A DNA stretch of 64,000 bases, taken from NCBI GenBank assembly GCA_025999455.1, contig AP024683.1:2978451-3042450 (forward strand), in the 5' to 3' direction. Position numbers and translations under genes: made by a program. Below the pieces are notes generated by a model. That model saw nothing but the letters and a program-made list of their open reading frames with translations. It ran no database searches and had not been told where the DNA came from. This DNA comes from Geminicoccaceae bacterium. Its GTDB lineage: Bacteria; Pseudomonadota; Alphaproteobacteria; Geminicoccales; Geminicoccaceae. Positions within the stretch are counted from its first letter, which is position 1. Each line of letters begins with the position of its first letter. Shown here one piece after another: positions 20,315 through 64,000 of this stretch.

Positions 20315-21209
20315 ACGTCGCGAGGGGGTCGCGGGTACCGAGGCCGGGGCGCCGCGTCCGCCGGGCCGCGAGCGGTGGAGGCGACCATCGGCCCGGTGCG
20401 GCCACCTTCGGGTTCGACAGGACCTTCGTCTCGCGTGAAGAAGTCCCGATTTTCGCCCGAGACGGGGGTGCGGTTGGCGAGCGGTGGCGACAAGTTCGGA
20501 TCGTGGTCGCGCTCGAGGCGGGTTCGGTCGTCGCTCGGCGGGCTCACCGACCTTCTCGGTCTCGCCGGTCGTGCCACGGTCGAGAGCGGCACGTCGCAAA
20601 CGCTCCTCGTCGAAACGCCGGGTGTCACCGCTGCCGCCTGCCGGCTCGCCGACAACAGGCAGGGCGTCTGGTGTCGGCCCGCGACCCCGGGTGCCGTCAC
20701 GGTGCACCGAGGCGACGGGCCCGTGCACGTCGTCTGCGAGAAGGAAGGCTACGAGACGACCGCCGTCACGGTCGAGGAGGAGTTCGCGGCCGCCACCTTG
20801 GGGAACGTGATCCTGGGCGGGGCGGTCGGGATCTTCGTCGACGCGGTGTCCGGTGCCGCGCAACGCTATCCGGACAAGCTCGTCGGGTGGATGAAGCCGA
20901 CGCAATTCGCCTCGCCCGAAGACGCGGCCGCCCGGGAAGCGGCGAAGAAGGCCTACGAGGAGTCCGCGGCGGCCGCCGCCGCGCACCGCGCCGAGCCCCC
21001 GCCCACGAACCGAACGCCCGGCCTCGCAAGCCGGCGCCGCCCCGGCGCGCCCGCCGATCCGCCCGCGCCGCCGGCGACGCCTGCTCCCTCGCATCCCGCG
21101 CGCCTCGCCTACACCTCGACCCGACACGCGCTTTTTTCTTCACGTTCGAGTCACCTTGCCGAGCTGCACCCTTCGACTTGCTCCCTTTTTTTCAGAGCAC
21201 GCTCGCACG

Positions 21210-49600: not shown

Positions 49601-51072
<1,472 letters not shown>

Positions 51073-51076
<4 letters not shown>

Positions 51077-61202: not shown

Positions 61203-62804
61203 ATGCTCCACCGTCCTCGCACCTCGCCGATCCCGGTCCGCCGTCGCTTCCTGCTCGGCGGTGCCACGGCGAGCCTCGCCCTCGCCGCGACCCCGTTGCG
61301 CGCCGTCGCCCAAGCACCCGCCGTGATCGTGAGCGAGCGCACCCGGATCAAGCTCCCCTACGGCGTGCAGGTCGGCGATCTTTCCGGCGACCGCGCGATC
61401 CTCTGGGCCAAGGCCGATCGCGAAGCGCGGATGATCGTCGAGTGGGCGACGACCGAATCGATGAAGGATCCGCGCACCGTGATCGGCCCGAACGTCGCCG
61501 AGGACACGGATTTCTGCGCCAAGCTCGACCTTTCCGGTCTGCCGGCCGGCCAAAAGATCTTCTACCGCGTGCGCTTCCTCGACCTCGCCGACTTGAAGAC
61601 CCTCTCGGAGCCCGTGACCGGCAGCTTCGCGACCCCGCCCGCCGGCCGGCGCAACGTCCGCTTCGTCTGGTCGGGCGACACGGCGGGGCAAGGCTGGGGC
61701 ATCAACCCGGACTTCGGCGGCATGCGCATCTACGAGGCGATGCGCCGGGTGGAGCCCGACTTCTTCGTCCATTCCGGCGACACGGTCTATCCGGACAACC
61801 CGATCACCGCCGAAGTGAAGCTGCCGGACGGCACGATCTGGAAGAACGTGACGATCGAAGAGAAGCAGAAGGTCGCCGAGACCTTGCGCGAATTCCGCAT
61901 GAACTACGCCTACAACCTCATGGACGAGAACGTCCGGCGGTTCAACGCGGCGGTGCCGATGCTAGCCCAGTGGGACGATCACGAGGTCACGAACAATTGG
62001 TACTGGGAGAAGCGGCTCGACGCGGACAAACGCTACAAGGAAGGGTCGGTGGCGGTGCTCGCCGCCCGGGCGATGAAGGCCTTCCACGACTACATGCCGA
62101 CCCGACGGCACCCGCTCGAGCAGGATCGGATCTACGGCTCCTTCCGCTACGGCCCCTCGCTCGAGATCTTCCGGATCGACCTGCGCTCCTATCGCGGCCC
62201 CAACACGGACGGGCTCGAGACCGTCCTCGCCCCCGAGACCCGGATCCTGGGCGAGGCACAGAAGCGTTGGCTGAAGCAGGCGCTCCTGGCCTCGGACGCG
62301 ACCTGGAAGGTGATCGCCTCCGACATGCCGATCGGACTCGTCGTCTGGGACGATTTCCGCGCGCGGCGCGGGGCGGAGGCGGTGGCGCAGGGCGAGAACG
62401 GGCCGCCCAAGGGCCGCGAGCTCGAGATCGCCGAGCTCTTGCGCTTCATCCGCGACAACCGGATCCGGAACGTCGTCTGGCTCACCGCCGACGTCCACTA
62501 CACGGCGGCCCATTATTACGATCCGAACGAGGCGGTCTTCCAGGACTTCCACCCCTTCTGGGAGTTCGTCTCGGGGCCGCTCCATGCGGGCACCTTCGGC
62601 CCGAACGAGCTCGACCGCACCTTCGGACCGAAGGTCGTCTTCCAGAAGGCACCACCCGCCGGTCAGGTGAACCTGCCGCCCTCGGCCGGCCTCCAATTCT
62701 TCGGCCAGGTCGACATCGACGGGGCGAGCGAGGTCATGACCGTCCGGCTCAAGGACCTCGACGGCAACACCCTCTTCACGAAGGAACTCCTCCCTGAGGC
62801 CTGA
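61203..62804 (+). CDS. PhoD-like alkaline phosphatase/phosphodiesterase
   Basis: 533 aa. A Tat signal (RRRFLLGGATASLALAATPL) sends the folded, metal-bearing enzyme to the periplasm. An N-terminal Fn3-like PhoD domain (GVQVGDLSGDRAILWAKADR) precedes the catalytic domain with metal-ligand motifs VWSGDTAGQG, FVHSGDTVYPDN, AQWDDHEVTNNW and WLTADVHYTAAHYY. It releases phosphate from phosphoesters. AGGAGG sits seven bases before the ATG, and a rho-independent terminator follows the stop. Confidence 0.93.
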   Translation: MLHRPRTSPIPVRRRFLLGGATASLALAATPLRAVAQAPAVIVSERTRIKLPYGVQVGDLSGDRAILWAKADREARMIVEWATTESMKDPRTVIGPNVAEDTDFCAKLDLSGLPAGQKIFYRVRFLDLADLKTLSEPVTGSFATPPAGRRNVRFVWSGDTAGQGWGINPDFGGMRIYEAMRRVEPDFFVHSGDTVYPDNPITAEVKLPDGTIWKNVTIEEKQKVAETLREFRMNYAYNLMDENVRRFNAAVPMLAQWDDHEVTNNWYWEKRLDADKRYKEGSVAVLAARAMKAFHDYMPTRRHPLEQDRIYGSFRYGPSLEIFRIDLRSYRGPNTDGLETVLAPETRILGEAQKRWLKQALLASDATWKVIASDMPIGLVVWDDFRARRGAEAVAQGENGPPKGRELEIAELLRFIRDNRIRNVVWLTADVHYTAAHYYDPNEAVFQDFHPFWEFVSGPLHAGTFGPNELDRTFGPKVVFQKAPPAGQVNLPPSAGLQFFGQVDIDGASEVMTVRLKDLDGNTLFTKELLPEA

Positions 62805-62857: not shown

Positions 62858-63313
62858 TCAGGGTCGATGGTCGTAGGCGGCGAGCTGGCCGTCGAGCGAC
62901 CAGATCCGAACCGGGCGCTTCGGCCAACGACGTTTCTCCCGCTCCCCGATCGCGATCATCGAGGCATCGGCGAAGCCGATGCTGGACACGAGCCGATCGG
63001 CGAGACCGTCCAGCAGCTTCTCGAGATCCTCGCGCTCGGGGAAGGGAACGAGCACCCAAGGTGCCTCGCCGCGGAGCGCCTGGCGAACGATCTCGACGAG
63101 CCTTTGGCCGCGTGCGCGCCGGAGCTGCCCGTGGTCGAGCTGCGCGATGTGATTGCCGGTCTCCACCACGGCCACGAGCGGAAGGAGGAGCTCCGTCCGC
63201 TGGTCCTTGACCAGACTTGCGAACTCGCGACGGATCTCGTCTCGACGTTCGTTCTTCCCCGGAACGTCCAGGATGTTGAGAAGGATGGACGTGTCGACGA
63301 TGACGATCGTCAC
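62858..63313 (-). CDS. PIN-domain ribonuclease-like protein
   Basis: 151 aa from the GTG at 63,313, which overlaps the ATPase stop (GTGA). The PIN-fold acidic residues are visible: VIVDTSILLNIL (first Asp), AVVETGNHIAQ (Glu), SIGFADASMIAIGE (Asp) and RIWSLDGQLAAY (last Asp). Such domains cut RNA. It is not paired with a VapB-type antitoxin but with an AAA ATPase, so it may be the effector of a two-gene defence or abortive-infection module. Function inferred from context. Confidence 0.82.
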   Translation of the reverse strand: MTIVIVDTSILLNILDVPGKNERRDEIRREFASLVKDQRTELLLPLVAVVETGNHIAQLDHGQLRRARGQRLVEIVRQALRGEAPWVLVPFPEREDLEKLLDGLADRLVSSIGFADASMIAIGEREKRRWPKRPVRIWSLDGQLAAYDHRP

Positions 63314-64000
63314 TCGCCGGCCATCTCGAAAAGCTCGTCGACCCATTTCTCCGCGTCGCGAGCCCGCTCCTCGGCGCTTCGTCGTCGTGCCTTGACGAAG
63401 CGGTCCAGAACCCCCCGGGTCACGAGCCGGCCGAGCGGGCCCTGGGCGAGCAGGCTCGCGGACCGCTCGAGATCGCGGAGCCGAGCCAGACGGCTCGCCC
63501 CGCTCTCGGGATCACGCCAGCAGAACACGGTGTCCAAGAGTGCGGCGCTCGGCAGCGCATCCATCAACGCCGGATTGTGGGTCGTCAAAAGAACCTGGAG
63601 CTTGCGTGCTTTGGCGACCGTCTCGATGTTCCGCAGCAGCTCGTCCGCGCGGCTCGGATGGACCCCGTTGTCGATTTCCTCGATGACGACGAGCGACCCT
63701 TTCGGCGCCGAGAGGAGAACCACCGCGATCGCCAGGACGCGCAACGTACCGTCGGACAGGAGCGCCGCCTCGACCGCCTGCTCGCGCCCGCCGAACGTCT
63801 CGAAGAGCTGCAGCATCACGTCCCGCGGCGGCGTGGTCGTGATGAAGTCGATCCGCGTGATGTCCTGCTCGGGAAGGCTCTTCACGAAATCGAGCAGACG
63901 TCGCCGCGTCGCTTCGTTCCGACAAAGCGTATGGGCGACTCCGGAAAGGTTGCTGCCGTCGCCCCGCAGCTCCTCGGCGCCGATCGGGCTGTAGCTGCGC
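63310..64000 (-). CDS. AAA-family (AAA_21, SMC/ABC-like) ATPase, 3' part, truncated by window edge
   Basis: The frame is open to the right edge, so the N-terminus and Walker A lie outside. Visible motifs: GDGSNLSGVAHTLCRN, typical of AAA_21/RecF-like ATPases, an ABC-signature-like ALLSDGTLRVLAIAVVLL, Walker B with catalytic Glu in GSLVVIEEIDNGVHPSRADE, and the H-loop VLLTTHNPALMDALP. This is the layout of OLD/RloA/PtuA-type defence ATPases. It is translationally coupled to the PIN gene. Confidence 0.85.
   Translation of the reverse strand, partial: RSYSPIGAEELRGDGSNLSGVAHTLCRNEATRRRLLDFVKSLPEQDITRIDFITTTPPRDVMLQLFETFGGREQAVEAALLSDGTLRVLAIAVVLLSAPKGSLVVIEEIDNGVHPSRADELLRNIETVAKARKLQVLLTTHNPALMDALPSAALLDTVFCWRDPESGASRLARLRDLERSASLLAQGPLGRLVTRGVLDRFVKARRRSAEERARDAEKWVDELFEMAGE

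Follow-up and report, generated by a model that had tools for sequence, protein, structure and literature searches.

Organization of the gene pair

Does the coupled pair of genes for an ATPase and a PIN-domain protein at the end of a 64,000-nucleotide stretch of a Geminicoccaceae genome serve in defence against phages, and does it belong to a system of a known kind? The two genes form a unit on the minus strand at the end of this stretch (the window, to which all positions refer unless another contig or locus is named), and the window edge falls within the ATPase gene. The PIN-domain protein (PDC-M07B; 151 aa, GTG start) is encoded at 62858–63313, and the ATPase (PDC-M07A), predicted to be of the ABC type, at 63310–64000, so that the window includes just the last 229 codons of the latter, its C-terminal part. 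Recovering the rest of the ATPase gene, a step proposed in the earlier note on this DNA, gave a complete frame of 435 aa with an ATG start at C1:3041760-3043067 of the same genome, equivalent to 63310–64617 on the window scale. Its Walker A motif reads GANASGKSN. The genome consists of one contig of 3.76 Mb, and searching it with the PIN protein revealed a single PIN copy.

The features from which the pair had been recognized are all visible in the sequence. The two genes are coupled through GTGA at 63310–63313, a 4-base overlap in which the PIN start codon runs into the ATPase stop codon. The Walker B glutamates E313-E314 (63676–63681) and the H-loop histidine H347 (63577–63579), which the earlier note had reported as intact, are present, as is an ABC-type signature, S288-D-G, at 63748–63756. 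The acidic residues of the PIN protein are likewise in place, namely D7 (63293–63295), E51 within an ETGNH motif (63161–63163), D116 (62966–62968) and D141 (62891–62893), all encoded on the minus strand.

Family and predicted fold of the two proteins

The system is already catalogued in PADLOC-DB as the phage defence candidate PDC-M07. The M07A profile (PDLC04392) matches the ATPase with 557.6 bits, aligning residues 1–429 with profile positions 1–427 of 432, and the M07B profile (PDLC04394) matches the PIN protein with 150.2 bits, aligning residues 2–149 with positions 3–150 of 154; the A and B genes adjoin on the same strand. After M07A, the next PADLOC family on the ATPase is HEC-01A (119 bits), and AriA of PARIS is among the following matches (103.9 bits). 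Pfam assigns the ATPase to AAA_21 (E=4e-31), while its PIN model matches the partner with 21.4 bits, under the cut-off of 23.6. Of 28 NCBIfam models, 25 were listed, and none of these comes near its cut-off on the ATPase; the PIN protein has no NCBIfam match.

The AlphaFold2 model of the window PIN protein (pLDDT 95.7) has its best structural matches in archaeal PIN proteins and in FitB and VapC toxins, with VapC20, a sarcin-ricin-loop-cleaving toxin according to the title of its structure entry, among the highest TM-scores. The ATPase fold was read on a relative, L031 (M07A 664.8 bits; ~52% identical), modelled with a pLDDT of 89.7. Its best Foldseek matches are PtuA of Septu and retrons and the heads of Rad50 and SMC, with VIA-align Z values of ~18–21 over ~265–300 residues. 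To judge by this model, the ATPase domain is of the ABC type (Rad50/SMC-like) despite the Pfam name AAA_21, and the same fold rules out an AAA+ ATPase. The label "AAA_21-type" thus survives as a Pfam match and falls as a statement of class. Sequence searches of solved structures gave a weak best match for the ATPase (E 0.0016), the ATPase of retron Ec78; for the PIN protein the best E was 0.36, with no PIN proteins among the matches.

The Rad50/SMC/PtuA-like fold read on L031 would suit a pair that targets DNA, in which the ATPase would be a DNA clamp that places the PIN protein on invading DNA for cleavage. The solved structures nearest to the PIN protein in fold, however, are for the most part toxins of the VapC type, and these are RNases, which makes the DNA-targeting reading quite unlikely.

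Conservation of the pair among relatives

In a collection with one genome per species, an alignment-based scan with the PIN profile yielded 431 candidate stretches, 406 of them confirmed as PIN relatives; a single-sequence scan found none in the genome contigs. Eighty of the 406 were returned, and these 80 genome loci, which span many phyla, are the ones examined here. Together with viral, plasmid and class members they make up 93 loci, and in 92 of these the PIN gene is immediately preceded on the same strand by an M07A-type ATPase gene, according to profiles for which 11 of these loci had served as input; the single exception begins at a contig end. Left outside this count were damaged or weak matches in the class (L010, L011/L013, L012), an annotated pair on a plasmid (L023) and NC_016983 (hits H5/H15). 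The two relatives on viral contigs are both paired, and the ATPase matched no phage record at 1e-10.

Across the 92 loci with both genes, the PIN start nearest the ATPase stop, a choice that favours small overlaps, would give an overlap with the ATPase end of 4 bases in 42 loci, 8 bases in 10 and 1 base in 10. The functional residues are nearly invariant. In the PIN protein, D7 is kept in 91 of the 92 pairs and E51, D116 and D141 in every one; in the ATPase, K34, S288, G290, E314 and H347 are each found in 92 of 92, with the signature aspartate in 90 and E313 in 91. The window ATPase is at most 53% identical to aligned relatives and the window PIN protein at most 48%. Alignment A6 comprises the window PIN protein and all 79 PIN proteins from genome contigs that have a partner, and alignment A7 comprises 62 of the 79 ATPases, the other 17 having been dropped by hand because they were extended or distant, or were just not picked. 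ATPase and PIN distances over the 92 pairs correlate at 0.83, partly owing to shared descent, against a maximum of 0.20 in 1000 permutations. Because the ATPase is upstream in 92 of 93 loci, the residues are conserved and the distances are correlated, we conclude that the two genes are an inherited unit and not a chance neighbourhood.

Distribution in the class and the chromosomal slot

Within the class, the PIN profile matches 6 of 385 genomes, the host included. The pair is intact in three: the host, G033 and G262. In G162 (L011/L013) the ATPase frame is open and the PIN frame broken, in G035 (L010) there is a remnant resembling a deletion of most of the ATPase and the PIN start, and the weak PIN match in G251 has an internal stop codon. 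At 1e-30 the ATPase is found in 2 of 96 genomes, the host and G033, and in none of the five other genomes of the genus that were searched.

In the host genome, the pair is flanked by a Bmp-type ABC transporter and a PhoD-like phosphatase (61206–62804, plus strand), which lies outside the system. In the sister genome G387 both flanks of the slot, PhoD and the permease, are conserved, with the match ending ~20 bases past the PhoD stop codon, and 1.2 kb of other DNA with 59.4% GC lies between them (L120:3665-4860). This DNA carries a HEPN-like ORF just under the Pfam cut-off (20.5 versus 22 bits) and gave no PADLOC match, and small accessory genes seem to swap at this site. In the other congeners examined, the PhoD and permease flanks are not together. 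The one clear comparison, with G387, suggests that the site is variable and that the pair was gained as an accessory module. GC content between the breakpoints is 67.0%, compared with a mean of 71.8% (sd 2.5) over 167 overlapping stretches of the window with the CRISPR array left out. Of these stretches 6.6% are as low in GC, and the share is 23% with the array kept in, so the foreign base composition is suggestive only.

The CRISPR array itself, which the earlier note had cited as a sign of phage pressure, is indeed in the same genome: it starts at 21207, runs for ~10 kb with 142 repeat copies at a spacing of ~71, and ends some 30 kb from the pair, on which it has no bearing in particular. 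Elsewhere in the window, 50675–51076 (minus strand) encodes a protein of the Fic/Doc family (56.6 bits in Pfam, with a weak match to PDC-M59B in PADLOC), possibly the toxin of a toxin–antitoxin pair.

No hsd gene is among the identified genes flanking the window pair, and HSDR_N has no match in the host genome; partnership with a type I enzyme therefore cannot be general for PDC-M07. The ordinary flanks would fit a housekeeping pair for RNA processing or repair with no role against invaders, as would the many ordinary families among the first neighbours of relatives. Against such a role stand the patchy distribution, with none of five other genomes of the genus carrying the ATPase, the other DNA held by the same slot in G387, and the plasmid copies described below, and we regard it as very improbable.

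Restriction operons and other neighbours of relatives

Relatives of the pair recur inside type I restriction operons. On the two Vibrio and Photobacterium plasmids read, the gene order is hsdM, hsdS, ATPase, PIN, hsdR and a SprT-like protease, and the genes overlap or nearly touch. In seven of the 80 genome loci, hsdR lies no more than 1.1 kb downstream of the pair on the same strand; these loci come from Gammaproteobacteria, Bacteroidota, Verrucomicrobiota and Ozemobacter. At L066, hsdS is directly upstream of the pair. From 46 HSDR_N matches in 96 class genomes, such a placement of hsdR would be expected by chance in ~0.01 of 80 loci, a figure to be taken as an order of magnitude, as the ~268 Mb behind it was summed by hand and the taxa differ from those of the 80 loci. 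On the ATPase tree, a quick tree with several long branches, the hsd context changes six times, at least five of these by well-supported branches. The hsd label was given to 10 of 92 rows, among them L066, which has an hsdS match only, before a contig end; looser associations (L034, L036, L039, L074, L077, L078) were left unlabelled. HsdM or HsdR was detected in 13 of the 80 loci, a lower bound given that Vibrio Hsd queries were used and many loci are cut by contig ends; among the 38 loci of more than 20 kb it was detected in 6. Beside most copies, the window copy included, no restriction gene was detected. The earlier note had counted neighbourhoods dominated by housekeeping genes against a defence role; the flanks in the host are ordinary, and some relatives are embedded in hsd operons.

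Two further observations concern these operons. A SprT-like metalloprotease gene follows hsdR in type I operons containing the pair or lying near it (L016, L017, L053, L060, L074, L081, L089, L091, L094 and L098), and on the Vibrio plasmid genes for an AbiEii/AbiGii-type nucleotidyltransferase and a DUF6088 protein lie just upstream of hsdM (L016:5853-7200).

We then compared first neighbours by PADLOC at 1e-10, using 74 upstream proteins, 76 downstream proteins and 102 control genes more than 6 kb away; the counts are minima from the 25 commonest families of each set, the ORFs were called greedily by length, so that some are wrong, and the controls come from the same loci and are not independent. 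Upstream, type I specificity subunits account for at least 4 of 74 and the Pfam restriction-subunit domain EcoEI_R_C for at least 2 of 74. Downstream there are at least 5 of 76 type I restriction subunits, at least 3 of 76 type I methylases and at least 2–3 of 76 PglX/MmeI-like methylases. Among the controls, restriction subunits and mad3 each reach at least 2 of 102, and a methylase, a specificity subunit, BrxB, PD-T4-6 and PDC-M16A at least 1 of 102 each. Within the 25 commonest families of each set, none occurs in more than 5 of the 74 or 76 first-neighbour proteins, and many first neighbours are ordinary families. Beyond the hsd genes the neighbour signal is weak, and we do not claim general enrichment in defence islands. 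The search for defence islands that the earlier note had proposed returned embedding in type I operons of several phyla; the control genes match some defence families too.

Mobilizable and conjugative plasmids also carry the pair, plasmids of 9 and 11 kb among them, and further plasmid copies are cyanobacterial or come from Acinetobacter, Lactococcus and Segatella. Such carriage, together with the VapC-like fold of the PIN protein, would suit a toxin–antitoxin or addiction module in which the ATPase neutralises a PIN toxin and the pair is kept for plasmid or locus stability, not against phages. The broken PIN frame beside an open ATPase frame in G162 has the loss order of a toxin, and equally that of a defence effector. 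Addiction alone, however, leaves the embedding in hsd operons unexplained, and the partner is a 435-aa ATPase of predicted ABC type with no small antitoxin gene; we consider this explanation unlikely.

Defence reading and proposed mechanism

The matches to PDC-M07A and PDC-M07B, the repeated embedding in type I operons and the patchy presence are the grounds on which we regard the pair as a defence candidate; the copies on plasmids also support this. The reading we favour, as probable though far from assured, is a PDC-M07-type two-gene module in which an ABC ATPase would act as sensor and restraint and a PIN nuclease as the effector on infection. The proposal of a candidate defence module thus gains support, but not as a new find, since the system was already catalogued.

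In the favoured module, M07A would be the sensor and restraint, and the effector would be the PIN protein, a nuclease that depends on metal and is most likely a VapC-like RNase with tRNA or rRNA as its target. Before infection the ATPase, probably oligomeric, would keep the PIN protein inactive. Infection would alter the ATPase through a phage protein or, where the pair is embedded in an hsd operon, possibly through the state of the restriction enzyme. This would free the PIN enzyme or switch it on, and translation would stop, leaving the phage unable to multiply. Restraint followed by release or activation is proposed for M07A by analogy with AriA/AriB and PrrC. The gene pair, its linkage, the conserved motifs, the predicted folds and the operon context of relatives are observed; complex formation, an RNA target, the trigger and a suicidal outcome are inferred.

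The recurrent place in hsd operons offers a concrete idea of trigger and effector. PDC-M07 might be a PIN-based counterpart of PrrC, a second defence line that watches the restriction enzyme or phage anti-restriction proteins and frees the PIN RNase to stop translation when restriction is blocked, with stand-alone copies responding directly to the phage inhibitor, in the way that AriA responds to Ocr. We put this forward tentatively, as a possibility that is more doubtful than the general module. If true, this PIN family would join the effectors controlled by ABC-type sensor ATPases.

A literature search found no paper naming PDC-M07, nor did one by the domains of the two proteins. No tested PDC-M07 member was found in the literature, where surveys treat PDCs in general, even though the family counts 406 confirmed PIN relatives, with the 80 returned spread over many phyla. 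Payne et al. 2024 is reportedly the original PDC preprint. Because a passage of a citing paper states that a PIN domain was validated in at least one of four references that include Payne et al. 2024 (PMC13092281), that preprint may contain a test of some PIN system. Most PDCs are without experimental validation, according to a passage of a 2026 survey (PMC12988326).

Comparison with known systems

In OLD and in GajA of Gabija, a C-terminal TOPRIM domain is fused to the ATPase. A Pfam search of the 435-aa ATPase at E up to 1 gave ATPase-type matches only, with none to TOPRIM, which excludes these systems and leaves the kinship to them suggested earlier unsupported. Septu shares the design of an ABC-type ATPase with a separate nuclease, and PtuA is among the closest folds of the L031 model. 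Its nuclease PtuB, however, is an HNH enzyme, and the partner here is a PIN protein, so the pair is not a Septu system.

PARIS likewise consists of two genes, for an ABC-type ATPase and a nuclease, and its AriA model matches the ATPase at 103.9 bits. In the part of a published account that concerns it, AriA is a sensor that sequesters the TOPRIM tRNase AriB until a phage protein is sensed (PMC12409363). The pair nevertheless falls outside PARIS, as its effector is a PIN protein and not a TOPRIM enzyme, and its ATPase fits M07A far better than AriA.

PrrC, whose nuclease domain is of the HEPN type, is a single polypeptide, whereas the pair comprises two proteins on separate ORFs, one of them with a PIN domain; membership in PrrC/RloC is thereby rejected, and the earlier suggestion of a Septu- or Rlo-type system finds no support. 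The likeness to PrrC in EcoprrI lies in the embedding in hsd operons, found in relatives of the window pair. Passages from two papers describe PrrC as an RNase with ABC ATPase motifs embedded in the type I restriction operon EcoprrI, silent with the restriction enzyme and released when a phage blocks that enzyme (PMC3874165, PMC2610378). The type I linkage is seen in some relatives and is absent from the window copy, with no flanking hsd gene and no HSDR_N match.

VapBC shares the predicted PIN toxin fold with its conserved acidic residues, and differs in that the partner here is an ATPase in place of a small DNA-binding VapB antitoxin. PIN nucleases have been shown to be defence effectors in DS-3 and DS-5, the latter composed of a PIN protein, whose catalytic residues are needed, and a DUF5830/AcrIF4-like protein, as passages of one paper report (PMC13092281). 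DS-5, compared by description only, is thus a two-gene defence system with a PIN nuclease, but its described partner is not an ATPase. Excerpts of two other papers mention PIN nucleases next to ABC-type ATPases in a defence context, one pairing a PIN effector with an SMC-like RecN ATPase within a CARD-like operon from a Bacteroidetes MAG (PMC10924106) and the other placing PIN RNases near ABC-ATPase/DndE genes (PMC10853773); as described, these are larger operons of other kinds. The closest counterpart is PDC-M07 itself, with which the window pair shares both proteins at near full length, their gene order and their adjacency. No essential difference was seen, and the window pair is a divergent member of PDC-M07.
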